From the NCBI RefSeq assembly GCF_007115105.1, contig NZ_SULJ01000002.1, forward strand, positions 1 through 64,000: a DNA stretch of 64,000 nucleotides, given 5' to 3'. The stretch's first letter is position 1. The number at the start of each line of letters is the position of its first letter. The notes beneath the pieces were generated by a model. The model ran no database searches. It saw only the letters and a list, made by a program, of their open reading frames with translations, and was not told where the DNA came from. Below are positions 33,032 to 47,182 of the stretch, piece after piece. This DNA comes from Clostridium sp. HBUAS56010 (lineage in GTDB: Bacteria > Bacillota > Clostridia > Lachnospirales > Lachnospiraceae). The position numbers and the translations under genes are program-made.

Positions 33032-33054
33032 GAAGATCTGCCAGGCAGATCTTC
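33032..33054. terminator. Terminator between the flippase gene and the nif operon
   Basis: Perfect 11-bp stem (33032-33042 with 33044-33054) around a one-base centre, in the 48-base gap between converging genes. Tails are pyrimidine-rich rather than a pure T-run. Confidence 0.7.
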
Positions 33055-33070
33055 TCCTTCCTCCCTATTC

Positions 33071-34048
33071 TTATCCTTTGTTACACAAAGAACAGTTTGC
33101 ACAATCCGATGGACTGCAGTGCATCCCCGGTCTTTGAAAGGCTTCTATGGTAAAACCGCAGCGGTTTAAACAATAGCTTTGACCTCCCATTGTAACCTGT
33201 CTGGAATTATAATCAAATTCCACTTTCAGCCCGGATACAGTAAGTACATCATCATACAGGGGATGCATCTTTTGTTCAGGGGTGTATTTCACAATGCTCC
33301 CCTCTTCGGTCTGGACATAGATGGAATGGTCGCAGGTAATCAGCGACTTAATCTCTCCCTCCTGGGTAAAGGAAAGGGAATTGCTGTCCGCATTGATCCC
33401 GTTATGATCCGGATCAAAGGCTGCAAGGGTTCCGATGGGTGTAGGCACCATTACCGCTTCCATAGGTTCTACAGATTTTAATTTTCCTGACTGCCAGAGA
33501 GATAACCCAACTTCTGTTTCTACCGTTCCCAAAGGTGTCTTTACTGCAATCTTCTCTCCAGGAAATAAAGTAATGCTCTTAATCTCTCCGCTTTCATAAA
33601 AACAGATGCCGCTGATCATTGCCTTAAACTGACAAATACCAAGGTCAAAGGAAAGAGGAATATTGTGTTTCCGTTCATCTTCCTCTGACCAGAATCCGCT
33701 TAACTGACCATCAACCATGAATATACGGTGAAGTTCTCCGCCTGGATAAAACCGTACCAGTTCTGCAGGAAGTCCTCCAATAGGTGTTATAATCTCCTGC
33801 TGCTGTTCCAGGGACACAGCCACCACCATTCCCTTTCTGTCAAATTCCACAGCAAGCTTATTCTTTCTTCTGGGTGTTTCCGTATAAGCCGGAACCAGTT
33901 CTCCAACTTCTGTAACAATCATATTTTTTTCCGAAAGCTTTACGCCAAAAAGTTCTCCTTTTGGATGGCAGGTAAAAGAAGCCACGCCTCCTAAGATACC
34001 AAAAGGTGTCTGCAGCGTCTTATCATCAATCACCATATAATTCTGCAT
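33071..34048 (-). CDS. Nif-operon repeat protein with a C-terminal cysteine cluster, function unknown
   Basis: Not assigned to a named family. 325 residues without signal or membrane segments. A loose repeat is visible: TP-x-G at residues 14, 88, 171 and 203, each followed by a hydrophobic strand and a G-E/K-L/I-K turn (31, 104, 154, 188, 231), suggesting stacked beta hairpins somewhat like MORN/YwqK repeats. The C-terminus has C293, C297, C311, C316, C319 and C322 (ending CANCSLCNKG), a plausible Fe-S or metal site. It is the last gene of the nif operon, 2 bases from the AnfO-like gene, so a role in nitrogenase assembly or protection is inferred. Confidence 0.8.
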   Translation of the reverse strand: MQNYMVIDDKTLQTPFGILGGVASFTCHPKGELFGVKLSEKNMIVTEVGELVPAYTETPRRKNKLAVEFDRKGMVVAVSLEQQQEIITPIGGLPAELVRFYPGGELHRIFMVDGQLSGFWSEEDERKHNIPLSFDLGICQFKAMISGICFYESGEIKSITLFPGEKIAVKTPLGTVETEVGLSLWQSGKLKSVEPMEAVMVPTPIGTLAAFDPDHNGINADSNSLSFTQEGEIKSLITCDHSIYVQTEEGSIVKYTPEQKMHPLYDDVLTVSGLKVEFDYNSRQVTMGGQSYCLNRCGFTIEAFQRPGMHCSPSDCANCSLCNKG

Positions 34049-34050
34049 TG

Positions 34051-34674
34051 TTACCCCTCCTTTAAACAGAAACTTCTTGTTATGGTTACATGAACAGCTC
34101 CTTTTTTAAGCTGTACCGTTTTTTCAAAATCTTTCTGATTCTCCAGCCAAGGAGGAATATGGGCACAGATCAGATGAAGTTCCAGAAAAGGGGTTTCTGC
34201 CAAAAAGGGCATAAGCGCTTTTTTAGAAGACACTTCTGGACATTCCTTTTGCACCTCCAGAAGATTAAAATAATATATACCTGGAGTGTCCCCCTGTACC
34301 GGACGCAGGTTTTTCACCATCTCTGCCTTCCCTTTTTTGCGTTCCTCACTCTGCTTTAAATCTTCTATCACTCCGTTCAGGGTTTCTTCATCCACCTGGT
34401 CTGTAAGAAAAATACCATAGCCTTTTCTATCAATGACAGAAAAGGGAATTCCTGTGATTTCTTTACAGATCACTGCTTTGGCATTCCCTGCATAACCAGC
34501 TATTTTTTCTGTCTCCTGTCTTAACTCCACCACAGAACTCCCCTTTAGAGGGACAAAAGAAATGGAACTGACCCGTTCCCAAATCCCACCCTGTTCTTCA
34601 TAAATCTGTACCAGATTGCAGCGCAGAAAAGCTTCCATTGTTTCATCACGGCTAAATACTGCTATTTTATCCAT
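34051..34674 (-). CDS. AnfO-like nitrogenase accessory protein
   Basis: 207 residues from ATG 34674 (GGGGG 7 bases upstream; ATG 34680 is too close). The opening MDKIAVFSRDE, the IYEEQGGIWERV stretch and the AVICKEITGIPFSVIDRKGYGIF centre resemble AnfO, an accessory protein best known from Fe-only nitrogenase clusters. Here it sits in a molybdenum nif operon with no anfG. Assignment by remembered pattern, moderate confidence. Function of AnfO itself is poorly defined. Confidence 0.62.
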   Translation of the reverse strand: MDKIAVFSRDETMEAFLRCNLVQIYEEQGGIWERVSSISFVPLKGSSVVELRQETEKIAGYAGNAKAVICKEITGIPFSVIDRKGYGIFLTDQVDEETLNGVIEDLKQSEERKKGKAEMVKNLRPVQGDTPGIYYFNLLEVQKECPEVSSKKALMPFLAETPFLELHLICAHIPPWLENQKDFEKTVQLKKGAVHVTITRSFCLKEG

Positions 34675-34691
34675 AGACATTCCCCCTTTGT

Positions 34692-34982
34692 TTAGCGGTC
34701 AAACTCAATTACATTTCCGTGAATCAGCTTTGCAAGAAATTCTTCCAGTTCCAGTTGGGCTTCTTCTTCATCAATATTTTTTTCCTCTGACAAAAGAGAC
34801 ACCAGCCTGCCAACCTCTGTTCCCCGCTCCAGACTGTTCCATAAAAAGATACAGGTTTCATTGACAGACGGAAGACCGTCTAGGGAGCCGTTCTGGCTGT
34901 CCCTTTCATCAAAAATACAGAATTCCCCGCCAAGCTCTTTTAAGACAAATCCAGGCTTTAGTTTTACGTTTCTAATTTTCAT
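34692..34982 (-). CDS. PqqD-like peptide-binding (RRE-type) protein
   Basis: 96 residues resembling the PqqD family: short beta strands (KLKPGFVLKELGGEFCIFD), an NETCIFLWNSLERG helix that matches the N-x-x-A/C-x-x-I/L-W hallmark, and a winged-helix end (EEEAQLELEEFLAKLIHGNVIE). PqqD-type domains bind and present a peptide to an enzyme, usually a radical SAM protein. No precursor peptide or RiPP enzyme is near; the only radical SAM enzyme in the operon is the NifB part of NifN-B. Overlaps none, but starts 1 base after the chaperonin-like stop. Confidence 0.78.
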   Translation of the reverse strand: MKIRNVKLKPGFVLKELGGEFCIFDERDSQNGSLDGLPSVNETCIFLWNSLERGTEVGRLVSLLSEEKNIDEEEAQLELEEFLAKLIHGNVIEFDR

Positions 34983-34983
34983 T

Positions 34984-36378
34984 TCAGCCTCTTAACCTTT
35001 CTATATCCACACCGTTTTTCATCAGTTCCAGATCTTCCCTGTCATATCCGGTACTCACCATAACGGCTCCTGTTGTCAGCCACATCACCAAAAGTCCAGT
35101 TACTTTCTTGATCATCAAAATAAGAAGCCAGGTGCTTACTGCTTCCTCTTTTAAACTTCTGATTATGGATTCCAGAAGTATGGTCTCTGTTTCAGAACCT
35201 GGGAAAACAGAGGCAAGATCCTCTTTGGAAACAATTCCGTACTGGTCCATGGTCTGGGCATACGCAACTGCATATTCCACTTTTCTTTTTTCATCCTTTG
35301 ACTGGGTCAGGGTCTGCCCACCCACATAGATGACCGGCGCCTTTTCCTTTAGACCGGCAATCCGTTCCCTGAGTTTCTGCTTATCATAATAATTGGTTTC
35401 CGGCTGGTTTATCCGTTCTTCTATGGAATGAATCCGATTGAAAACCGGTTCTCTTTTCAGACTTCCTTCTATAATAATGTACCCAGGTGTTACGGTAAGA
35501 GTCTTTGCTTTTCCAAGCATATGGAGGGAAATCTCTTTCATGGGGCAGGGATAGATGCCGTCAAACACCGTAGTATTTGTCAAAACTGCCGTATCTCCCA
35601 TGAGATCTTCTTTTCGCCTTCCTATTCCGGGGATTTTCCCCGCCCATACGGGAAGATGGTTTTTCTGAGTATTGACAGCCAGAAGATTCTTTGCTTCGCC
35701 CTCTATCTGGTCTGTAAGAATGAGAAGCCTCTCTCCTTTTAATCTGGTTAAAAGCGGATAGATCTCCTGAAAGGAGGATATGGAACGGTTTACCACCAGA
35801 ACACGGACATCATAAAACGTTCCACAGGTTCCCACAGCCAACGGCCCATCAAGGCGCATTCCTTCTGTGATTTCCAGCTTTGTTTCTGCATTCATGGACT
35901 CTTTTACTACCAATTCCCCAGCCTCCATGCCAGAAAGAATCAAATCCGCCAAGTTGGGATCATTTGTTATCCGGGTAAGAAGCTCTTTCCTGGAATCCCT
36001 GGCAGGATGGGTGCTTTGTCTGACTGATTCTTCCAGAGACAGGGCGGCAGATTTTAAACATTTTGCAAAATACACCGGACTGATGCCGGATGCTTCCCTG
36101 CGTTGGCATACGGGGAGCAAAAACTTCATCATAGACGCAGTCTCTCTGGTGCCGCAGCCTGACAACGTGTTAATCTCCTGAATTGCTGCACTGGCAAGGC
36201 GGATCCCCTGGTTGACATAATAATCCTTCCCTTCCAGCTCTTTTGCCACCTCAGACGCAGACATACTGAATCTTCCATTGACTAAAATATTACCTTCCGC
36301 AGAGAGGACATGGCAAAGAGTTCCAATTCCCTGTGCCATCTTCCTTTTTCCGTCTTCATAACTTATCTGACGTATCAT
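34984..36378 (-). CDS. Divergent GroEL-family chaperonin-like protein lacking catalytic aspartates
   Basis: 464 residues (GroEL about 540). Homology to GroEL runs through all domains: SGCGTRETASMM (73-84) aligns with the GDGTTTATVL loop, ITEGMRLDGP (170-179) with VVEGMQFDRG, RLLILTDQIEGEA (217-229) with PLLIIAEDVEGEA, KIPGIGRRKEDLMGDTAVLT (248-267) with the apical PGFGDRRKAML region, and RIHSIEERI to KLRERIAGL (315-343) with its intermediate domain. The three ATPase aspartates appear replaced: D52 by S40, D87 by C75, D398 by Y369; the TLGPKG loop and GGM tail are also missing. Overlaps nifV-alpha by 23 bases. Probably a scaffold or client holder for nitrogenase maturation, by inference. Confidence 0.87.
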   Translation of the reverse strand: MIRQISYEDGKRKMAQGIGTLCHVLSAEGNILVNGRFSMSASEVAKELEGKDYYVNQGIRLASAAIQEINTLSGCGTRETASMMKFLLPVCQRREASGISPVYFAKCLKSAALSLEESVRQSTHPARDSRKELLTRITNDPNLADLILSGMEAGELVVKESMNAETKLEITEGMRLDGPLAVGTCGTFYDVRVLVVNRSISSFQEIYPLLTRLKGERLLILTDQIEGEAKNLLAVNTQKNHLPVWAGKIPGIGRRKEDLMGDTAVLTNTTVFDGIYPCPMKEISLHMLGKAKTLTVTPGYIIIEGSLKREPVFNRIHSIEERINQPETNYYDKQKLRERIAGLKEKAPVIYVGGQTLTQSKDEKRKVEYAVAYAQTMDQYGIVSKEDLASVFPGSETETILLESIIRSLKEEAVSTWLLILMIKKVTGLLVMWLTTGAVMVSTGYDREDLELMKNGVDIERLRG

Positions 36379-37183
36379 AGGCTTCTCCTCCCTTGCTCAT
36401 CCCTCTTAATAGTTCTTCCGCTTTTTTTATGTCCAGACTGGTTACCCCCAGATCGAATTTTCTTCCGGCTCCATGTACGAATTCATAAAGGTTGCAATTA
36501 CCTGCCCGTTCCCCAATTCCCAATAAAGTTCCATCTACCATATCTGCTCCTGCCAGCGCCATAACCATGGAGTTGGCAACTGCCATTCCAAAATCATTAT
36601 GTTCATGAACCTCCACCTGAATTCCAGTCTGACGGATCTCCTGAATCATCTCCCTTGCTCTTCTTGGGAATAAAACACCAACCGTGTCCGCTAACCGGAT
36701 TACCTCCACACCTTTTTTCCGAATCTGTCGGATGAGAGAAATCAAAAATGCCACATCGGCTCTGGAAGAATCTTCAAGCCCTACTGTAATCGGAATGTTA
36801 TAATCCTTTGCAACCTGGATACATTCCATTAAGGTATTCTCAATCCATTTCTTATTCTTTCCAATCTTGGTGTAAATCTGGGTATAGGATACCGGCGTAC
36901 CAACATGAATCAGATCTGGTTTCTGTCTGGCTGCCTCTTCCACATTCTTTGCATTCAGTCTGGACCAGACAGAGATGTCTGCATGCCTTTTTTCCTTCAT
37001 GATCCTTGCGATATAATGAATTCCTTCTGTCCCTGTATCGTATATTCCGGCTTCAATTTCATCAATGCCGATGCTGTCTAAGAACAGAGCCAGTTTGATT
37101 TTATCTTCTGGTGAAAATACGATTCCAGGGCACTGCTCTCCATCCCGAAGGGTTGTATCCACTATTTTAATTCGTCTTTTCAT
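36356..37183 (-). CDS. nifV: NifV alpha, catalytic part of a split homocitrate synthase
   Basis: Condenses acetyl-CoA with 2-oxoglutarate to homocitrate, the organic part of FeMo cofactor. 275 residues from ATG 37183: the TIM-barrel part only, with VDTTLRDGEQCPGIVF active-site motif, RLADTVGVLFP and HEHNDFGMAVANS metal ligands. The HSGK-type C-terminal region is encoded by the preceding gene. A GTG at 37198 is an alternative start; either overlaps nifV-omega, implying coupling. Same split as in C. pasteurianum. Confidence 0.93.
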   Translation of the reverse strand: MKRRIKIVDTTLRDGEQCPGIVFSPEDKIKLALFLDSIGIDEIEAGIYDTGTEGIHYIARIMKEKRHADISVWSRLNAKNVEEAARQKPDLIHVGTPVSYTQIYTKIGKNKKWIENTLMECIQVAKDYNIPITVGLEDSSRADVAFLISLIRQIRKKGVEVIRLADTVGVLFPRRAREMIQEIRQTGIQVEVHEHNDFGMAVANSMVMALAGADMVDGTLLGIGERAGNCNLYEFVHGAGRKFDLGVTSLDIKKAEELLRGMSKGGEAYDTSDKL

Positions 37184-38138
37184 TCTTATCACACTCACTC
37201 ATTATAGTTAAAAATTCTTCATCGGTTACTTCTCCATTGTTTTTCATGCTTTTTCGTTTTACCATCTCAAGCAGCTGCCCTTCATCGTATTGCTTCTCAA
37301 CTTTAAGCTGTTTCATTTTATAGCGTATGGATATCTTGCCCGAGTGCTTTCCAAGCACCACCTTTCTGGCTGCTCCCACAAGCTCTGGAGGAAAAGATTC
37401 GTAATTGGATGGCTTTTTTAAAACTCCGTCTACATGGATACCGGATTCAATATGAAAAATTTTGCTGCCGATCACGGGAGCATGACCGGATATGGTTTTC
37501 TTTGTCATCTGCTCAAAAACTCCCCGAAGCTCTGCCAGAGGTTCGAAGTTGTGGTTTGGTTTGTAACGCTCGACCACACGCATGGCAAGAATCACCTGTT
37601 CTGTGGCGGCTTTGTTGCCGATTCCTGTAAATGTGGTCATCACCGTACCGTTATGATGGTATTGGAGATAATCTGCGGCAATGGCAGAGGCACAGTAATA
37701 GGAATTCTCGGGATAAAGAATCGGGGATACCTGCATCAAAAGCTTCATTCCCCGTTCATATATATCCCTGCTTTCATAAATCAGAAGATCGTCAAGCCCT
37801 GTAAGCCTTAGCTTTTTGTCACAGCCAATATCCGCCAGGCCTTTTAATTCCGATACATCATTTACCTGAATGCTGCGGATACTTTTTCCAGTCCCATCAG
37901 AAAAGGAAGAAAAGAAAAACTGGATTCCCGGATATTTTCCGCATTCTCCCATACTGGGAAGTTCCATATAATAGATGATGCCTTCCGGCAGTTCACCATT
38001 TAACACATGATAAACTCTGGGGGAGAGAACTGCTCCCGACACAGAAAGACTGTTAAGCCCTTTTAAAAAATCTTTTACCAGTTTCTTTGTCAAACAACTT
38101 CCATCAACCATAGTCAGCGTAGCATCAATGATCTTCAT
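37167..38138 (-). CDS. nifV: NifV omega, accessory part of a split homocitrate synthase
   Basis: 323 residues from ATG 38138 (AGGGG upstream; the TTG at 38141 is less likely). The C-terminal half carries VVLGKHSGKISIRYKMKQL and the ADYLQYHHNGTVMTTFTGIGNKA segment found in the later half of homocitrate/isopropylmalate synthases, while the DTTLRDGEQ active-site motif is absent (N-terminus instead reads IIDATLTMVDG). Pairs with NifV alpha to make one functional enzyme. Omega precedes alpha. Confidence 0.9.
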   Translation of the reverse strand: MKIIDATLTMVDGSCLTKKLVKDFLKGLNSLSVSGAVLSPRVYHVLNGELPEGIIYYMELPSMGECGKYPGIQFFFSSFSDGTGKSIRSIQVNDVSELKGLADIGCDKKLRLTGLDDLLIYESRDIYERGMKLLMQVSPILYPENSYYCASAIAADYLQYHHNGTVMTTFTGIGNKAATEQVILAMRVVERYKPNHNFEPLAELRGVFEQMTKKTISGHAPVIGSKIFHIESGIHVDGVLKKPSNYESFPPELVGAARKVVLGKHSGKISIRYKMKQLKVEKQYDEGQLLEMVKRKSMKNNGEVTDEEFLTIMSECDKNEKTN

Positions 38139-38171
38139 CAACCGGCACCCCTCCCTTTTTTCGTAAATCTG

Positions 38172-38496: not shown

Positions 38497-41148
38497 TTAC
38501 ATTGCTGCTGCCGCTTTTTTCACCGCATCTTCAATCATATCGTAGGTATTTACCGGCGTAATCCCCATCTGTGCCAGCTTTTTCTTTGGCTCCATTCCAA
38601 TCCGCATGGCAATGACCCCGTTGCAGCCGGTAAGGGCATTTAAAATTGATTTCATTTTATCTTCCTGCTCTCCGCAGAATTCTTCACCGCTGCAGTACTG
38701 TTCCACCTTTCTCTTTCCTGCAAACCGTACTTCTCCGTTTTTGTAGTCATACAGGTAGAATTCTTTTGCATGACCAAAATGGGTATCCACCACCACTCCG
38801 CTTTTGGAAGCAACTGCAAACCGGTACTGTTTTTCCACGGAAAGTGCCTCTTTTGATTCTTCCGATAAGAACCCTTTTAATTCAATGGATTTATCATCCG
38901 TCAGGGTTCCCACCGCATCGGCACGGCAGTGCTGGCAATGATACATCTGTGGCATGATCGCTTCGCATTCTTTCCTCAATTCCGTCAACTGCCTGTTGGA
39001 GATGGGTTCCACCTGCTCCATGGCACTTCCCTCTACCGGAATCATCTGCATGATATTGGTAATAAAACAGCCCATTTCCTTCACAGCTTTTACCACTTCC
39101 GGTACATGATGGTCGTTGATTCCCTTTACCGTTACAATGTTAACCTTTACCAAAACCCCGTTGGCAATTAAGAGACGGATTCCTGCAAGCTGATTTGCTA
39201 CCATGATGGCTCCTGCAGCATCTCCCCGATACTCTTTTCCCATAAACCGGATATACTGATAGATCTGTCCGCTGATATGGGGATCTACAGCATTGAGAGT
39301 TACGGTTACATGGGATACGGAAAGGCGTGCCAGTTCCTGGGCATACATCGGAAGCTTTAATCCGTTGGTGGAGAGACAGAATGTCACATCCGGATCCGCT
39401 TCTCTTATGAGTTCAAAAACAGACTTTACACTCTCCCAGTTTTCCAGTGCCTCTCCCGGTCCTGCAATACCCACTACAGTTAAGTTTGGCATCTTTTCCT
39501 TTACCTTCAGATACCGTTCCAATGCTTCATTGGGAGTTAAGATCGCCGAGGTCACTCCCGGACGGCTTTCGTTGGGACAGTCAAACTTTCTGACACAATA
39601 TCCGCACTGAACGTTGCAGGCAGGTGCTACAGGCAGATGAATTCTGGCAAACTTGTGTCCTTTACAGTTATAGCAGGGGTGTTCCAGCGTCTTTTTTCTC
39701 ATAACGGCTTCCCGGTCTGCAAGTTCTGTAAATTCCGGTGTTTTTACTGGTTTGGGAGATTTTGGTTCTTCTTTATAATAAGTATCATAAAGTGTCTCCC
39801 GGAATGTGGTTTCAACCGTTTCAAGAAGATGATTGGAAATCTCATCCATCAGTTCCATGGAACCTTCATACCCAAGCATCTTTAAGCGCTGTCCCCCTAC
39901 ATGGTCATGAACAGGAAATCCCCTCCGCACAAGAGGAAGCGAAAGATCTTTTGCAATTCTTCTTCCATCAGAATTACCAACTAAAAGATTGGCATTGCAT
40001 GCAATAACCATAGCTTCAATCTCTTTAAAATCTGCCTGATCCGTAATTCTGTATTCTTCGATGAAATACCTTTGTGCCAGGGATTCGATCTCCGGAGCAA
40101 TCTTTTTCATCAGTTCCGGGGAATGTGACCCGGCGGCACATACCACAGGCATCACTCCGCACTCACACATCATACGAACCATGGAATACACCTGATCCGG
40201 TTCCCCAAAGACAGCGGCTCTTCCGGAAGAATTATATTTGTGGGAATCAATCATAGCATCCTGATACCGGCCTCTTTCCTTTTTGAGTTTCTCTGGAATT
40301 TCTTTTCCAGAAATATCCGAAAGAGTTTTTAAGAAAATATCCGTATCTCTTAGTCCTACCGGAAGGGGAAGACGGATATAAGGAACTTTGTAAGTATGAA
40401 GCAGGTATTCCGCTACGGAATTCTTCCGTTCAAACCCTGATAATTCCAGGGTAATCTTTGCTCCGCCCATTTTTCTTAGTTCCTCTAAGCTGGTTCCATA
40501 ATGGGGAAGACGGTTGTATTCTTTTTCATGAGCACCATCTAAATTCTCCGATAAGTCAGGTAACAGTATGGCTTCGATTCCAAAAAGGGCTAACATTTCT
40601 TTTATATACCTGGTATCAGCAGGGCTTAAAGGGGCAGTTACCACATTAACCAGATGATTTTTTTCCTTATCCATCGGAATGGAAGAAACAATTGCATGGA
40701 GTGCGGAAAAATAACCTTCATACTGACTTCCCCCATATCCGGGAGAACTGCACGGAATCAGGGTAATGTTCCGGTATTCTTCATTTTCTTCCAGAAAATC
40801 TTCTAAAATTCCAGGAACATCTTCTCCAATGGTTTCCGCAAGGCAGGTGGTCATGATTCCGATCATATCCGGATGATACAGCTCAATCAGATTTTTAAGT
40901 CCCTTTTTCAGATTATCGCTCCCACCATATACGGTCCCCTGCTCAGTTAAGGAAGAAGAAGCAATATCAACCGGCTCATTGTAATGGGTTGCCATATGTC
41001 TCCGGATGTAAGTGGCACATCCCTGAGAACCGTGAAGAATGGTCATGCAGTTTTTCAATCCGTAAAATGCAGTGGCACTGCCCATTGGCATACACATTTT
41101 ACAGGGATTGATATTTAGATTTACCAGAGGTTCTACTTTACTTTTCAT
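38497..41148 (-). CDS. nifN-B: NifN-NifB-NifX fusion for FeMo-cofactor assembly
   Basis: 883 residues combining three maturation functions. Residues 1-450 are NifN-like (INPCKMCMP and LHGSQGCATYIRRH, related to NifK) and pair with NifE as the cofactor scaffold. About 495-770 are NifB, a radical SAM enzyme making the 8Fe-9S-C precursor, with CNVQCGYC and further cysteines (GHKFAR region, HCQHCRADA). About 775-883 are a NifX/NafY-like carrier domain (VVVDTHFGHAKEFYLY). NifN-B fusion is known in clostridia; start follows AGGTGG. Directly after nifE. Confidence 0.95.
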   Translation of the reverse strand: MKSKVEPLVNLNINPCKMCMPMGSATAFYGLKNCMTILHGSQGCATYIRRHMATHYNEPVDIASSSLTEQGTVYGGSDNLKKGLKNLIELYHPDMIGIMTTCLAETIGEDVPGILEDFLEENEEYRNITLIPCSSPGYGGSQYEGYFSALHAIVSSIPMDKEKNHLVNVVTAPLSPADTRYIKEMLALFGIEAILLPDLSENLDGAHEKEYNRLPHYGTSLEELRKMGGAKITLELSGFERKNSVAEYLLHTYKVPYIRLPLPVGLRDTDIFLKTLSDISGKEIPEKLKKERGRYQDAMIDSHKYNSSGRAAVFGEPDQVYSMVRMMCECGVMPVVCAAGSHSPELMKKIAPEIESLAQRYFIEEYRITDQADFKEIEAMVIACNANLLVGNSDGRRIAKDLSLPLVRRGFPVHDHVGGQRLKMLGYEGSMELMDEISNHLLETVETTFRETLYDTYYKEEPKSPKPVKTPEFTELADREAVMRKKTLEHPCYNCKGHKFARIHLPVAPACNVQCGYCVRKFDCPNESRPGVTSAILTPNEALERYLKVKEKMPNLTVVGIAGPGEALENWESVKSVFELIREADPDVTFCLSTNGLKLPMYAQELARLSVSHVTVTLNAVDPHISGQIYQYIRFMGKEYRGDAAGAIMVANQLAGIRLLIANGVLVKVNIVTVKGINDHHVPEVVKAVKEMGCFITNIMQMIPVEGSAMEQVEPISNRQLTELRKECEAIMPQMYHCQHCRADAVGTLTDDKSIELKGFLSEESKEALSVEKQYRFAVASKSGVVVDTHFGHAKEFYLYDYKNGEVRFAGKRKVEQYCSGEEFCGEQEDKMKSILNALTGCNGVIAMRIGMEPKKKLAQMGITPVNTYDMIEDAVKKAAAAM

Positions 41149-41166: not shown

Positions 41167-42519
41167 TCAGCCTACATATTCCCATACAGGACTGTTGATG
41201 CTTCGATTGATCTCCTCAGTGAAGTGATAAACTCCCTGAAAACCAGCTAAAGGGAATTTTCTCTCGTGATTGTGATCGCAGAATGCGATTCCCAGTTTAT
41301 AAGCCAGAGGCCGTTCTTTCACACCTCCCACCAAAATATCCGCACCTTTTTTTTTCATGAACAGCTCAAGTTCTGCCGGATTGGCATCATCTAAAATAAT
41401 GGTGTCCGGTTCCACCAGACTTTCTATAATCTCATAGTCTTCTTTTTTACCAGTCTGGGTTCCCACCACAACGGTCTGTATTCCCATGGTCTGAAACTGC
41501 CGGATCAGGGAAATCGCCTTAAACCCTCCACCCACATAGATGGCTGCTTTTTTCCCTTCCAGATTGGTTCGGTATTTCTTTAAAAATCCACTTAATTCTG
41601 CCGTTTTCCTTCCACAGAACCCAATGGCTTTTTTTCTTGCTTCATCATCATGAAGCGCATCTGCCACACGGATTAAAGATGCGGTAGTATCCTCAACACC
41701 AAAAAAACTGACTTTGATAAAAGGAATGCCAAGCTCCTCCTCCATCCGATTTGCCAGATAGGTACTTGATCCGGCACACTGGACAATATTAAAGGATGCC
41801 TTTGGAGCTTCTATCATATCCGCATAACTGGTGTCCCCTGTAAAACCAGAGATCACATCAATGCCAATCTCCTTAAAATAATTTTTTATGATCCACATCT
41901 CACCTGCCAGATTAAAATCCCCCAAAATATTAATGGCTTTCTTTTTATGCAGACTTTTATATGGAAGAAGAACGCTCATAATGGCATCACATGCCATACG
42001 GTATCCTGTTGATTTGTTCCCGGAAAACCCAGGGGATTTAACGGGAATAACCGGAATGGAATATTGCTCGGATTTCATTCTGCACAGTGCATCTACATCA
42101 TCTCCGATTACACCTACAATACAGGTGGCATAAATAAAGATAAGCTTTACGTTCTCCTGTTTTTCCATCAGTTCATCAACGGCTGCCTCCAGTTTTTTAA
42201 TTCCCCCGAATATAATATCCGTCTCCTGCAAATCGGTGGAAAAACTGTTGCGGTAAATATCCTCTCCACTTGATAACGACCCTCTGATATCCCAGGTATA
42301 GCTGGAACAGCCAATGGGACCATGGACGATATGATAGGCATCCGTAATGGGATTTAATACCACCCTTGCCCCGCAGTACACACAGGCCCTTTGAGATACG
42401 GAACCGGATACACTGTTGCTGTCGCAGCAAATACCGCCTTTGGCGCCGCATCCCTCTTTGATTACAATGGAACCCTTTCTGGCATCCAGAATATTATTGC
42501 TTGATTTTTCCGTTCCCAT
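41167..42519 (-). CDS. nifE: NifE, FeMo-cofactor scaffold subunit
   Basis: Alpha-type subunit of the NifEN scaffold on which the cofactor precursor matures with Mo and homocitrate. ATG 42519 has GGAG 7 bases upstream, giving 450 residues; longer frame to 42558 is unsupported. P-cluster-type cysteines in RACVYCGARV, GPIGCSSYTW and ATCIVGVIGDD; C-terminal HNHERKFPLAGF. Follows nifK by about 85 bases. Confidence 0.95.
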   Translation of the reverse strand: MGTEKSSNNILDARKGSIVIKEGCGAKGGICCDSNSVSGSVSQRACVYCGARVVLNPITDAYHIVHGPIGCSSYTWDIRGSLSSGEDIYRNSFSTDLQETDIIFGGIKKLEAAVDELMEKQENVKLIFIYATCIVGVIGDDVDALCRMKSEQYSIPVIPVKSPGFSGNKSTGYRMACDAIMSVLLPYKSLHKKKAINILGDFNLAGEMWIIKNYFKEIGIDVISGFTGDTSYADMIEAPKASFNIVQCAGSSTYLANRMEEELGIPFIKVSFFGVEDTTASLIRVADALHDDEARKKAIGFCGRKTAELSGFLKKYRTNLEGKKAAIYVGGGFKAISLIRQFQTMGIQTVVVGTQTGKKEDYEIIESLVEPDTIILDDANPAELELFMKKKGADILVGGVKERPLAYKLGIAFCDHNHERKFPLAGFQGVYHFTEEINRSINSPVWEYVG

Positions 42520-42603
42520 GACCATACTCCTTTCAAATGCGAACCCGGTGAATACCACAAGAGGGAGGGTGCGGCGCCCTCCCTGGTTCCCTGGTTCTTT
42601 TGT

Positions 42604-43977
42604 TTACATTACCACTTCAAAGTCTTCATCTGCCGCATCCCGGTCCTGCCGGTCCATCATGGCATCCACGATTTTTTCCACATAACGGATTCCGCCTGAA
42701 TATCCAACGGTTGCCTGAATGGGGTTTCCGTACCGGTCAAGAACCGGAAATCCCATACGGACAAGAGGAATATCCTCTGCTTTTGCAATCTGTTTTCCAT
42801 AACTGGAGCCAATTAGAATATCCACGGATTCATTTTTAATCAACTGATGAAGATAGAATAAATCCGTATCCGCCTTTACCACATATTCACTTTCATCTAC
42901 TCCATACTGATCCATCAGTGCCTTGATTTCCTTCTCCCACCGTTCTTTTGGTGTTCCGGTAATGATGTATCTGGGGATCATTCCCAGTTCCAGACAAAGA
43001 GCCGTAAATCCATACACAATGTCCGGATCGCCGTAGATGGCGGCTTTCTTCTTATATACATACTGATGGGCATCTAACATTAAATCCACCAGTCTTCCGC
43101 GTTCATCCTCAAGAACTTTTGGTACCTCCTGTTTGGTAAATTTCTGGAGTTCTAAAAGGTACTGATCCGTCAGCTTTACTCCTACGGGAACGGGAATGTT
43201 GGAAAAAGGAACCTTAAATTCCTTTTCCATGTATTCCGATGGTTCCGTACTGCAATAAGTTCCCATGGAAATCAGCTTTTTACAGTCGCCAAGAGCTTTG
43301 ATCTCTTCTCCTGAGGTTCCGGCATTGTTATGGAAATATTCATTTTTCCCATCCATGGGATGATCCAGCGTGCCGTCATGATCTGGAAAATAGATATAAT
43401 CAGCTCCCATAAGTCCGGCGATTCTCTTTATTTCCCTGTCATCTCCAGGATTGACCCAGCCTGGGAAGATGGCTAATTTTCCATTGGACACTCCGGTCTT
43501 TTTTGTCATGTACTTCATAAACCCAATCATCATATTGGAAAATCCCTGGATATGTGATCCTTCATAGGAAGGAGTGCTGGCATATAACACCGTCTTTCCT
43601 TCCGGAATCTCCATGTCAAAAATATAGGAGCCAACATCATCGCCAATGGTTTCTGACAGGCAGGTGGTATGAATCGCCATAATGTCCGGGTTGTAGAGAT
43701 CAAACACATTTTTGGCGGCTGTTGTAATATTGCTCCGCCCGCCAAATACAGAGGCTCCCTCGGTAAAAGAGCTGCTGGAGGCAATTGCGGGTTCTTTAAA
43801 ATGACGGCTTAACACTGTCCTGTGGTAAGAACAGCATCCTTGGGAACCATGGGAATGGGGCATACATTTTTCTGCACCCAGTGCACAGAACATGGCACCT
43901 ACCGGTTCACAGGTCTTACAGGGATTAATGGTCATATGCCGTTTTTCCATAATTTCTTTTGGGGTTAATTCGAGCAT
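42604..43977 (-). CDS. nifK: NifK, MoFe protein beta subunit
   Basis: 457 residues, short at the N-terminus as in clostridial NifK (about 50-60 residues less than in Azotobacter). P-cluster cysteines are in INPCKTCEPVGA, HGSQGCCSYHR and TTCLSETIGDD, with the conserved Ser just after. The start codon overlaps the nifD stop (TGATG), implying balanced synthesis. Confidence 0.98.
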   Translation of the reverse strand: MLELTPKEIMEKRHMTINPCKTCEPVGAMFCALGAEKCMPHSHGSQGCCSYHRTVLSRHFKEPAIASSSSFTEGASVFGGRSNITTAAKNVFDLYNPDIMAIHTTCLSETIGDDVGSYIFDMEIPEGKTVLYASTPSYEGSHIQGFSNMMIGFMKYMTKKTGVSNGKLAIFPGWVNPGDDREIKRIAGLMGADYIYFPDHDGTLDHPMDGKNEYFHNNAGTSGEEIKALGDCKKLISMGTYCSTEPSEYMEKEFKVPFSNIPVPVGVKLTDQYLLELQKFTKQEVPKVLEDERGRLVDLMLDAHQYVYKKKAAIYGDPDIVYGFTALCLELGMIPRYIITGTPKERWEKEIKALMDQYGVDESEYVVKADTDLFYLHQLIKNESVDILIGSSYGKQIAKAEDIPLVRMGFPVLDRYGNPIQATVGYSGGIRYVEKIVDAMMDRQDRDAADEDFEVVM

Positions 43978-45575
43978 CAGCCTGCACCTCCTAACATTCC
44001 TTCAATCATTGGTGTGGTTTTCCACGGTGGTTTTACCAGGGACCAGGCATTGGTATAAAGACTCATTGCCACATCTCTTCCAAAGATGACCGCTCCTCTG
44101 AACCCTGCATAAGGTCCGGAATAATCATAGGAGTGCATCTGTCTGGATACCACACCACCATGCTGTATGGCGTATTTATCCTTGATTCCGGAAAAGAAAA
44201 TATCCGGCTTATATGCCTCAATTAACTGATCGGTTTCAAACATGTTATAATCGTCCACAACCATATAGCCCTTTTTCATATCCTTTAACATTCCATCATA
44301 AGTATCCAGTTCCACACCGGCTGCCCGCATCTCTTTCATCTCTTCTTCGGAATAGCGGTCTTCATACCCGGCTTCCCTGCTGACAGAGATTTCTTCGATA
44401 TTTTTAGAGTCTGCATCGGCTTTGATCTGGGGAATGATCTCACGGCCTTCATAATCATCTCTATGGGCAAATTCATACCCGGCAATTGTGGTTTCCATGC
44501 CAAAGTCCCGCAGTAACATCTGATAATGATGGGATCTGGAACCGCCTACAAAAATACCGGCTGTCTTTCCCTTTAGCTTGGATTTGTAATACTCCATATC
44601 TTCGCTGATTTCTGCCAGTTCTTCTGCAATGACTTCCTCCGTGCGCTTTGTAAGCTCCGGGTCATTAAAGTATGTTGCAATCATGCGAAGGGACTTACAG
44701 GTAGCTCCGATTCCGATGAAGTTGACCTTAATCCAGTCCACGCCGTATTTGGTCTTCATCATCTCTGCTATGTAATTAATAGAACGGTGGCACATAACCA
44801 GATTTAAATCCGCAAGATGGGAATTTTTAATGGTTTCATAGGAACCGTCTCCGGTAAATACCGAAACCACTTCATACCCGATCTTCTTTATTATCCGCTC
44901 CTGCTCCCAGCCATCACCGCCGATATTATACTCTCCAAGAATGTTGACACTGTACTTGCTCTTTGGGGCTTCTTCCCCCTTGCCGATCACATAACGCATC
45001 AGACCGTTATTCGCAATATGATGCCCGGCAGACTGGGATACACCCTTATACCCTTCACAGGAATAACCAATTGCCGTGATTCCGTATTTTTCCTCTGTTC
45101 TTCTCGCCACTGCCTGCACATCATCTCCAATCAGACCAATGGGACAGGTGGAGCAGATGAAGATACACTTCGGATTGAAGAGCCGCATAATCTCGTCAAT
45201 TCCTTCTTCCAGCTTCTTCTCTCCCCCAAATACAATGTCAGACGCCCGCATATCAGTACAAAATGAATAAGGAACAAAGTTAGGCTCTCCCTCATAGGAA
45301 GATTTTGCTTTATTTCTTCTGGTCGCCCAGGAATAAAAGGCACAGCCAATCGGTCCGTGGGTAATTACAACGGAATCCTTCATGGGACCTACAACAACTC
45401 CCTTACAGCCTGCATAGCAGCAGCCTCTTGCGGTTATGATTCCCGGTATTGCCCTGGTATTGGCAGTAATCTCATCGGGTTCTTCTGCAAATTCCAATTG
45501 GGTAATATGACTCTTTCTGTTTTTAAACACTCTGGTTGAATATTGATCCAACAACAATTCTCTTTCTTTTGCCAC
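43977..45575 (-). CDS. nifD: NifD, MoFe protein alpha subunit
   Basis: Carries FeMo cofactor and shares the P cluster with NifK. GTG 45575, 8 bases after GGAGG, is the likely start (532 residues); the GTG at 45584 lies inside the ribosome site. P-cluster cysteines in CCYAGCKG, GPIGCAFYSW and CSTCPIGLIGDD; SAGHHIAN carries the cofactor-neighbour His; cofactor Cys in LVMCHRSINYI; cofactor His in MHSYDYSG. An insertion of about 50 residues near 380-430 is the clostridial feature. Confidence 0.98.
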   Translation of the reverse strand: MAKERELLLDQYSTRVFKNRKSHITQLEFAEEPDEITANTRAIPGIITARGCCYAGCKGVVVGPMKDSVVITHGPIGCAFYSWATRRNKAKSSYEGEPNFVPYSFCTDMRASDIVFGGEKKLEEGIDEIMRLFNPKCIFICSTCPIGLIGDDVQAVARRTEEKYGITAIGYSCEGYKGVSQSAGHHIANNGLMRYVIGKGEEAPKSKYSVNILGEYNIGGDGWEQERIIKKIGYEVVSVFTGDGSYETIKNSHLADLNLVMCHRSINYIAEMMKTKYGVDWIKVNFIGIGATCKSLRMIATYFNDPELTKRTEEVIAEELAEISEDMEYYKSKLKGKTAGIFVGGSRSHHYQMLLRDFGMETTIAGYEFAHRDDYEGREIIPQIKADADSKNIEEISVSREAGYEDRYSEEEMKEMRAAGVELDTYDGMLKDMKKGYMVVDDYNMFETDQLIEAYKPDIFFSGIKDKYAIQHGGVVSRQMHSYDYSGPYAGFRGAVIFGRDVAMSLYTNAWSLVKPPWKTTPMIEGMLGGAG

Positions 45576-45590
45576 TGCCTTCACCTCCCA

Positions 45591-45974
45591 TCAATAAGCA
45601 TCCATGGTGTGTTCTCCGCTTCTAACGGTATACGCTTCCTCAATGGGAAGCACGAAGATTTTTCCATCACCTGGATTTCCTGTCTGGTTTGCTTTTATCA
45701 AAATATCAACTGCCTCTGTTACCTGTTCATCTTCCACAATCATTGTCAGAAGCCTTTTGGGAATCCACCGGAACACTTCTGTCAAATGTTCTCCCTGGGG
45801 CGATATGGGAAGTGCTCCATTTTCCAGAACCAGAGTAACCAGTTCGGGATCAATCCTTTTTTTCCCTCTGCCCATTACCGATCTGCAGGTAACTGCCGGA
45901 AAACCGCCTTCTGCCAAAGCTTTTTTGGTCGGATTGATCTTATTCACACGGATAAATGCCATTACTTCTTTCAT
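45591..45974 (-). CDS. nifI2: NifI2, PII-like regulator of nitrogenase
   Basis: 127 residues from ATG 45974 (GGAAGG 7 bases upstream). PII fold with the extended T-loop region of NifI2 (PELVTLVLENGALPISPQGEHLTEVFRWIPKR) and GDGKIFVLPIEEAYTVRSGE near the end. NifI1/NifI2 complexes bind NifDK and switch off activity when nitrogen is plentiful, antagonised by 2-oxoglutarate (known for archaea and clostridia). Confidence 0.93.
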   Translation of the reverse strand: MKEVMAFIRVNKINPTKKALAEGGFPAVTCRSVMGRGKKRIDPELVTLVLENGALPISPQGEHLTEVFRWIPKRLLTMIVEDEQVTEAVDILIKANQTGNPGDGKIFVLPIEEAYTVRSGEHTMDAY

Positions 45975-46005
45975 GTTCATCCTTCCTTTCTTTTAAAAGC
46001 TTTTC

Positions 46006-46329
46006 TTAAAGTCCTTTTTTTCCTGTGCTGATGGTATAAGCTTCTTCAATAGGAGAGATGAAGATTCTTCCGTCACCGTAATTGCCCTCTCCAGTCTTTG
46101 CAGTTCTTAAAATAACTTTCACCAGATCCTCTTTGTCCTCTTTGTTACAGAAAAATAAAAGCATTTCTTTCGGAATCTCGTCATAATGGACTTCTCCTAC
46201 GGTAATTCCCTTTTGTTTTCCACGTCCATATACATCCATTTTCGTCACTGCCTGAAATCCTGCTTCTGCCGCCTCTTTCATGACATAATCCGCCTTTTCC
46301 GGCCGGATAATCGCTCTCACCAATACCAT
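46006..46329 (-). CDS. nifI1: NifI1, PII-like regulator of nitrogenase
   Basis: 107 residues; N-terminal MVLVRAIIRPEKADYVMKEA, T-loop region GRGKQKGITVGEVHYDEIP and C-terminal GDGRIFISPIEEAYTISTGKKG. The nifH-nifI1-nifI2-nifD order is that of group II/III nitrogenases. Its absence of the uridylylation-type Tyr context of GlnB agrees with direct 2-oxoglutarate/ATP sensing. Confidence 0.94.
   Translation of the reverse strand: MVLVRAIIRPEKADYVMKEAAEAGFQAVTKMDVYGRGKQKGITVGEVHYDEIPKEMLLFFCNKEDKEDLVKVILRTAKTGEGNYGDGRIFISPIEEAYTISTGKKGL

Positions 46330-46351: not shown

Positions 46352-47182
<831 letters not shown>

Follow-up and report, generated by a model that had tools for sequence, protein, structure and literature searches.

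GroEL has a role in the maturation of the MoFe protein of nitrogenase, and PqqD-type proteins bind peptides. According to the excerpts available of two papers on Azotobacter, AnfO sorts cofactors in this organism and acts as a guard of the Fe-only nitrogenase (PMC11938142; PMC9310841). Its N-terminal domain binds the apo-FeFe protein and its C-terminal domain binds FeMo- or FeV-cofactor; in the Azotobacter vinelandii protein, His203 is essential, whereas Cys159 and Cys201 are dispensable (PMC11938142, in excerpt). The same excerpt describes NafY of A. vinelandii, a FeMo-cofactor carrier with a histidine ligand that also binds apo-NifDK. AnfO, NafY, GroEL, and PqqD are the closest known things, each matched in part, to a set of four genes that ends the molybdenum nif operon of Clostridium sp. 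HBUAS56010, which lies in the 64,000-nucleotide stretch that we analyzed (the window; contig NZ_SULJ01000002.1, positions 1 to 64,000). An earlier note on this DNA had taken the four genes for one dedicated, undescribed module. They do follow nifV-alpha, all of them intact and on the minus strand:

34984..36378, minus strand: GroEL-like gene (groL-like), 464 amino acids (aa), nucleotide-site aspartates lost, C-terminal tail conserved but disordered
34692..34982, minus strand: PqqD-like (RRE-type) gene, 96 aa, PF05402 at 36.3 bits, 77 to 91% identity to 10 genus relatives
34051..34680, minus strand: AnfO-like gene, 209 aa, start at 34680 or 34674, PF09582 at 132.5 bits, C-x-H pattern
33071..34048, minus strand: rep, a MORN-like beta repeat gene, 325 aa, C-terminal Cx4Cx2Cx2C tail, all-beta in the AlphaFold2 (AF2) model

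The idea of a single module, however, was not supported. Outside the genus, anfO and rep persist, whereas groL-like and pqqD were not found in the loci; four-gene unity is also broken by Muricomes, which has rep alone after nifV, and by three genomes with anfO but no rep (G082, G144, and G198). The tail is instead made up of two layers: AnfO and rep, a pair with a wide distribution, and an addition of GroEL-like and PqqD-like genes that was seen only in the genus. We put the probability at about 0.5 that these layers form a nitrogenase-maturation set in which AnfO is a NafY-like escort, rep is its partner, and the dead chaperonin and the PqqD-like protein act as a holdase. Within the literature searched, rep and the GroEL-like and PqqD-like genes are indeed undescribed; AnfO is not, since it is already known as the guard of Fe-only nitrogenase.

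AnfO and rep track nitrogenase and each other

In a class-level sample of 391 genomes, NifK was found in 26, AnfO over its Pfam cutoff in 14, and a strong rep match in 14. All of the AnfO genomes and all of the rep genomes were NifK positive (Fisher test, 5e-19). The tight linkage to nitrogenase that had been proposed is supported. For these counts, NifK positive meant at least 399 bits, a level that 21 of the 47 genomes with any match did not reach. Eight genomes with only sub-cutoff PF09582 matches (22 minus 14) were excluded from the AnfO count, three of which are NifK positive (G432, at 29.4 bits, G306, and G394), as were two weak rep matches (<20 bits). Among the 26 NifK-positive genomes, 13 carried both genes, 1 carried AnfO only (G198), 1 carried rep only (G352), and 11 carried neither (P = 1.7e-5). 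When the genomes were collapsed into genera, with mixed genera scored as having both (g184, with one genome lacking rep, and g291, with one genome lacking either), the table read 6 both, 0 AnfO only, 1 rep only, and 10 neither (P = 6e-4). Some effect of common descent may persist in these tests, a point that counts against our reading. A Mantel correlation (r = 0.92) takes no account of phylogeny and is given no weight here.

The association was also seen closer to the window. At the family level, 7 of 150 genomes had full-length NifK; rep was found in four of the seven and in none of the 143 others, and in five of the seven the nif region was seen to contain anfO. Eighteen of 25 genus genomes had NifK at >900 bits, and the same 18 had rep, including G173 (L066/L067/L085), in which rep and anfO are broken by frameshifts. 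A scan of the genome-contig collection with rep-profile patterns returned 25 loci, every one beside nitrogenase or nitrogenase-like genes; because it requires peptide patterns to be conserved, it overlooks rep genes of greater divergence, some of which were recovered in the class search. Of the 16 AnfO copies in the class sample, 12 adjoin rep and 14 have nitrogenase genes within the fetched stretch. The genes of the tail do not lie mostly outside nif operons, and it was groL-like and pqqD that were missing, outside the genus, from relatives with the same operon.

Locus counts given below (36 for AnfO and 39 for rep) exclude L043, L044, and L045, which come from the same genomes as L082, L086, and L088, and the frameshifted L085. 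In L085 (Lacrimispora xylanisolvens ASCUSBR21), nifE, nifN-B, anfO, and rep all appear frameshifted, probably through sequencing errors.

The Cys-tailed rep protein accompanies nitrogenases of several metal types

The window rep protein had no match to Pfam families at E values up to 1. Its AF2 model is confidently all-beta (pLDDT, 86.6) up to residue 309, where low confidence sets in, and found no confident match among solved structures. Matches to MORN_2 repeats (PF07661) occur among its relatives: the homologue at L151 scores 36.9 bits over a cutoff of 29.6, and E values up to 1 were obtained for 12 of 21 relatives. Predicted beta repeats are common to rep and MORN_2 proteins, whereas the missing Pfam match of the window protein, its Cys-rich tail, and its link to nitrogenase are not. 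The cysteine cluster that had been noticed in the repeat protein is conserved, as a four-Cys tail occurs in 34 of 39 distinct loci (Cx4Cx2Cx2C in 18 and Cx2Cx2Cx2C in 13).

Beyond Mo operons, rep lies in the Fe-only cluster of L120 (anfG, 174.9 bits), in the V-like cluster of L122, and in the Fe-only operon of Sporolactobacillus L083 (ANFD, 898 bits in an NCBIfam scan), and short rep genes of Butyrivibrio come after a NifX-like gene in clusters that also encode NifH and NifDK-like proteins. Given that rep accompanies Mo, V-like, and Fe-only systems as well as this additional cluster type, a role in a step common to them is likelier than Mo delivery.

The form of Mo delivery to be considered is that rep substitutes for NifQ, with its Cys tail binding a Mo-Fe-S cluster and passing Mo to NifEN. 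Both proteins have a four-Cys cluster, at the C terminus in rep, and the Mo-binding motif of NifQ, Cx4Cx2Cx5C (PMC4417242, in excerpt), is matched in 2 of the 39 rep loci (L083 and L129, the latter with five Cys). Moreover, the rep open reading frame (ORF) of L151 begins 147 bases after modC, following modABC. The window tail, however, has the spacing Cx4Cx2Cx2C, and rep stands beside Fe-only (L120 and L083) and V-like (L122) operons, in which the heterometal is not Mo; of the two loci whose tails have the NifQ spacing, L083 is itself an Fe-only operon. We therefore consider a NifQ-like role for rep to be improbable.

A tblastn search had led us to read Sporolactobacillus L083 as a Mo nif locus, an assignment that the NCBIfam scan overturned. 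Separately, the Butyrivibrio cluster at L089:5045-10633 encodes a NifB-like radical S-adenosylmethionine (SAM) protein without a NifX domain, NifH, two divergent NifDK-like proteins, a NifX-like protein, and a short rep; it is an unnamed NifB-type nitrogenase-like system, and L090 to L092 are similar by tblastn.

AnfO occurs in genomes without a detected alternative nitrogenase

The window protein scores well over the AnfO cutoff of Pfam (30.3 bits for PF09582), which places it in AnfO rather than in the NifX/NafY domain family. With the A. vinelandii protein it shares this family, the C-terminal C-x-H, and an N-terminal part whose profile resembles NifX-like domains (hhalign E value, 1.2e-5; probability, 81.5). 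The candidate cofactor-ligand His is present in 36 of 36 AnfO loci, and the Cys of C-x-H is absent only in L123. Unlike the Azotobacter gene, anfO of the window lies in a Mo nif operon: the AnfG/VnfG delta subunit (PF03139) was found in none of 25 genus genomes, including that of the window, whereas a Methanosarcina acetivorans control was positive. In a set of 20 genomes, made up of the 14 class genomes with AnfO and six genomes of the family with nif genes, PF03139 was found in 2, and AnfG/VnfG was not found in 12 of the 14 class genomes.

In two genus genomes (G171 and G172, the latter in one contig), anfO is present, the sole NifX-family domain found is that of the NifN-B fusion, and all NifK-like matches lie inside the nif operon. 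AnfO is consequently the only other carrier-type protein recognised in these genomes. The simplest reading is that AnfO would have a NafY-like escort role; its proposed job, to bind apo-NifDK as well as FeMo-cofactor by means of a histidine, would resemble that of NafY.

Alternatively, AnfO could sort cofactors as it does in Azotobacter (PMC11938142 and PMC9310841, in excerpt) and keep the wrong cofactor off NifDK, for example one from the second nitrogenase-like system of the genome. Such a system exists, since contig C1 of the window genome carries a second NifH plus NifDK-like cluster with its own NifX-like domains. Yet G171 and G172 have anfO without any NifK-like match outside the nif operon or any NifX-family domain beyond NifN-B, and the delta subunit is missing from all 25 genus genomes. 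In addition, G263 and G465, both of which have alternative nitrogenases, carry two AnfO-rep pairs each: one adjoins the Mo genes, and the second adjoins Fe-only genes in G263 and V-like genes in G465. With AnfO beside Mo genes even there, we find a sorting role in the window genome quite unlikely.

The second NifH/NifDK-like cluster of the window genome spans C1:805000-824500 (L049), includes NifX-like domains, and falls far under the NifD and NifK equivalog cutoffs. A third NifH-like stretch, at C65:151273-152022 (L155), has one TAA within the match. In G505, the AnfO at L119:3197-3832 scores 153.4 bits, over the Fe-only equivalog cutoff, and no AnfG/VnfG was found in the genome.

The GroEL-like protein has lost its nucleotide-site aspartates

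The description of the first tail gene as a degenerate chaperonin was borne out. The protein scores 157.3 bits with GroEL TIGR02348, against an NCBIfam cutoff of 582.1, although its predicted structure retains the chaperonin fold of GroEL/Cpn60. The aspartates at positions 52, 87, 398, and 495 (which we take to be E. coli numbering) are lost in 15 of 15 orthologues and kept in 30 of 30 canonical GroELs, in an alignment whose C-terminal part is less sure; Cys always replaces Asp87. Likewise, none of the 15 orthologues retains the GGG turn or the L and P of the LGP loop, whereas the canonical proteins keep them (30 of 30; L in 28 of 30). Other differences from GroEL are its length (464 aa versus 539 aa for the genome's own GroEL), its neighbors (nifV-alpha and pqqD), and a new conserved C-terminal tail. 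From GYDRED on, this tail is nearly invariant (residues invariant in 13 of 13) and yet modeled with low confidence, and because of this combination it looks like a ligand for a partner. A nitrogenase-linked chaperonin without catalytic aspartates is a testable oddity.

Since the fold is that of GroEL and apical positions such as L237 and L260 are kept, the protein might assemble with or regulate normal GroEL, with only its timing linked to nif; GroEL itself, as noted above, has a role in MoFe protein maturation. Against this, several apical contact positions are altered (Y199 is changed and Y203 falls in a gap in all 15 orthologues, and L234 is changed in 14 of 15), and we see little likelihood in it.

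The GroEL-like gene is present in 18 of 18 nif-positive genus genomes (seen in part, in 1.5-kb flanks, and whole in the named loci). Among the 150 family genomes, the subfamily was found only in that of the window (1,017.5 bits); the next best match was a 545-aa ORF at 140.7 bits and 31% identity. Restriction to the genus was judged from these 150 genomes for the GroEL-like gene, from nif neighborhoods for both it and pqqD, and from plasmids for pqqD. This restriction speaks for the possibility that the two genes are passengers of nif transcription with no role in nitrogenase function, as do the faster evolution of the GroEL-like gene relative to NifK (dN/dS, 0.14 versus 0.03, with 21 of 36 groL pairs usable) and the absence of pqqD from one genus genome. 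Against this possibility, the GroEL-like protein is 464 aa long in 14 of the 15 named orthologues measured (the exception being the frameshifted L085), its dN/dS is well below 1, its tail residues are invariant, it is seen in every nif-positive genus genome, and the PqqD-like protein remains 77 to 91% identical. On balance, we regard the passenger explanation as unlikely, though less so than the other alternatives considered here.

As a separate observation, the GroEL-like protein has two invariant Cys residues (22 and 75), with Cys75 at the Asp87 position; they might conceivably belong to a site for a metal or cluster.

No RiPP genes recognised beside the PqqD-like gene

The PqqD-like protein passes the PF05402 cutoff (23.4 bits), and its gene is present in 17 of 18 nif-positive genus genomes. 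It differs from the PqqD family in its surroundings: no precursor or maturase of a ribosomally synthesized and posttranslationally modified peptide (RiPP) was recognised among the operon genes called at our 50-aa ORF limit, which short precursors would escape, and the radical SAM enzyme of the operon is NifB.

A proposed two-layer model for nitrogenase maturation

From the gene linkage, co-occurrence, aspartate loss, conserved candidate ligand, and predicted folds described above, we infer all of the interactions among the tail proteins, and the direction of cofactor flow, that make up the following model. AnfO would dock on cofactor-free NifDK via its NifX-like N-terminal domain and hold FeMo-cofactor through the histidine of its C-terminal domain; like NafY, it would escort the cofactor or hold it back until insertion, in bacteria without a detected alternative nitrogenase. 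The rep protein would probably serve as a docking platform and have as its partner AnfO or a different NifX-like carrier, and its flexible Cys-rich tail may take or give Fe-S or cofactor metal. Because rep is found with Mo, V-like, and Fe-only enzymes, it would act on a step common to nitrogenases (NifB-co or apo-enzyme handling) and not on the heterometal. The GroEL-like protein, whose fold is kept but whose ATP-hydrolysis residues are lost, would for this reason hold apo-NifDK or an assembly complex rather than carry out cyclic folding, with the PqqD-like protein as a putative peptide adaptor to this holder.

Several observations weigh against this reading. Of the 26 class genomes with NifK, 12 have no AnfO above its cutoff, 12 lack rep, and 11 lack both, so that the pair is not required by every nif system. 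The stretches fetched around 2 of the 16 AnfO copies (L119 and L132) and 4 of the 16 rep copies (L150 to L153) in the class sample contain no nitrogenase gene. Window AnfO falls under the TIGR02940 equivalog cutoff for Fe-only AnfO (71.4 versus 129.15 bits), and the C-x-H of the loci resembles C201-x-H203 with His203 matched by pattern, not by direct alignment to A. vinelandii AnfO. Parasporobacterium (L086) and the four short rep forms of Butyrivibrio do not have the Cys tail. The G-x-G-T of GDGTTT is kept in 15 of 15 GroEL-like proteins, which makes some nucleotide binding possible. Finally, the operon of G160/L080 lacks pqqD and keeps the rest, including the GroEL-like tail, and the link between PqqD and this tail is accordingly weak.

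In a bolder version, which we offer as speculation and think rather unlikely to hold in full, the GroEL-like protein would be an ATP-independent, nitrogenase-dedicated chaperonin, a static holder of apo-NifDK whose tail is read by the PqqD-like protein (an RRE serving a metalloenzyme rather than a peptide product), while AnfO and Cys-tailed rep deliver cofactor; more broadly, AnfO and rep would act together as gatekeepers for clostridial nitrogenases, whatever their metal. If so, AnfO sorting in Fe-only systems would be a special case of a general AnfO-rep cofactor gatekeeping.

Even without this extension, the data move AnfO away from the part of an Fe-only specialist: in the class sample, its gene lies mostly (12 of 14) in NifK genomes with no alternative-nitrogenase delta subunit found. 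In at least two genus genomes no stand-alone NifX/NafY-type domain was found (no NifQ search was made), and anfO and rep are two candidate genes for cofactor delivery in such bacteria. For engineered nitrogen fixation, minimal gene sets may omit such helpers.

Operon layout

On the minus strand of this 3.95-Mb genome, the nif operon runs modABC, nifH, nifI1, nifI2, nifD, nifK, nifE, nifN-nifB, ferredoxin, nifV-omega, nifV-alpha, and the four tail genes. Its other features are as follows:

36356..37198, minus strand: nifV-alpha (homocitrate synthase, HMGL part), TIGR02660 at 243 bits, N-terminal part of the model
37167..38141, minus strand: nifV-omega (homocitrate synthase, C-terminal part), TIGR02660 at 99.6 bits, HCS_D2 at 58.7 bits
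38172..38480, minus strand: 2Fe-2S ferredoxin, NF041612 at 169.5 bits (cutoff, 150)
38497..41148, minus strand: nifN-nifB fusion with a C-terminal NifX-like domain, called from the ORF, PF02579 at 75.2 bits at 38512-38793
41167..42558, minus strand: nifE, from the ORF and gene order, conserved in relatives
42604..43977, minus strand: nifK, 85 to 92% identity in 17 other genus genomes
43977..45584, minus strand: nifD, from the ORF and gene order
45591..46329, minus strand: nifI2 and nifI1 (PII-like), from the ORFs and gene order
46352..47170, minus strand: nifH, PF00142 at 425.6 bits
33031-33042 / 33044-33055, no strand assigned: perfect 12-base inverted repeat, terminator-like, 3' of rep, read from the sequence

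The spacing given in the earlier note (an overlap of 23 bases and then gaps of 1, 17, and 2) holds. nifV-alpha and groL-like overlap by 23 bases, 1 base separates groL-like from pqqD, and 2 bases separate anfO from rep; the gap between pqqD and anfO is 17 bases from the second ATG (34674), which is the start used by the 203-aa AnfO ORFs of most genus relatives, and 11 bases from 34680. Across the named genus loci, the first overlap is 17 to 23 bases (except in the frameshifted L085), and the groL-pqqD gap is 1 base wherever pqqD is carried. Median dN/dS was 0.05 to 0.15 among 8 or 9 sequences, with dS near saturation (for anfO, 18 of 36 pairs were usable). Given this conserved spacing and these ratios, the four tail ORFs are not chance ORFs.

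A scan for terminator-like sites on the minus strand from nifV-alpha to rep found none except a weak one inside anfO (34579-34564), and promoter-like sites over the operon were not in excess (27, versus 30.9 in shuffles). The 12-base inverted repeat is flanked by rep on one side and by a convergent gene on the other. Judging from the spacing, the whole operon, including the tail, is probably one transcript. The nearest relatives of the window genome in a named collection are Lacrimispora and related Clostridium species. A Lacrimispora-type nif operon with its tail also occurs in three metagenome-assembled genomes titled Paenibacillaceae (L069, L078, and L079), which are probably mislabeled.

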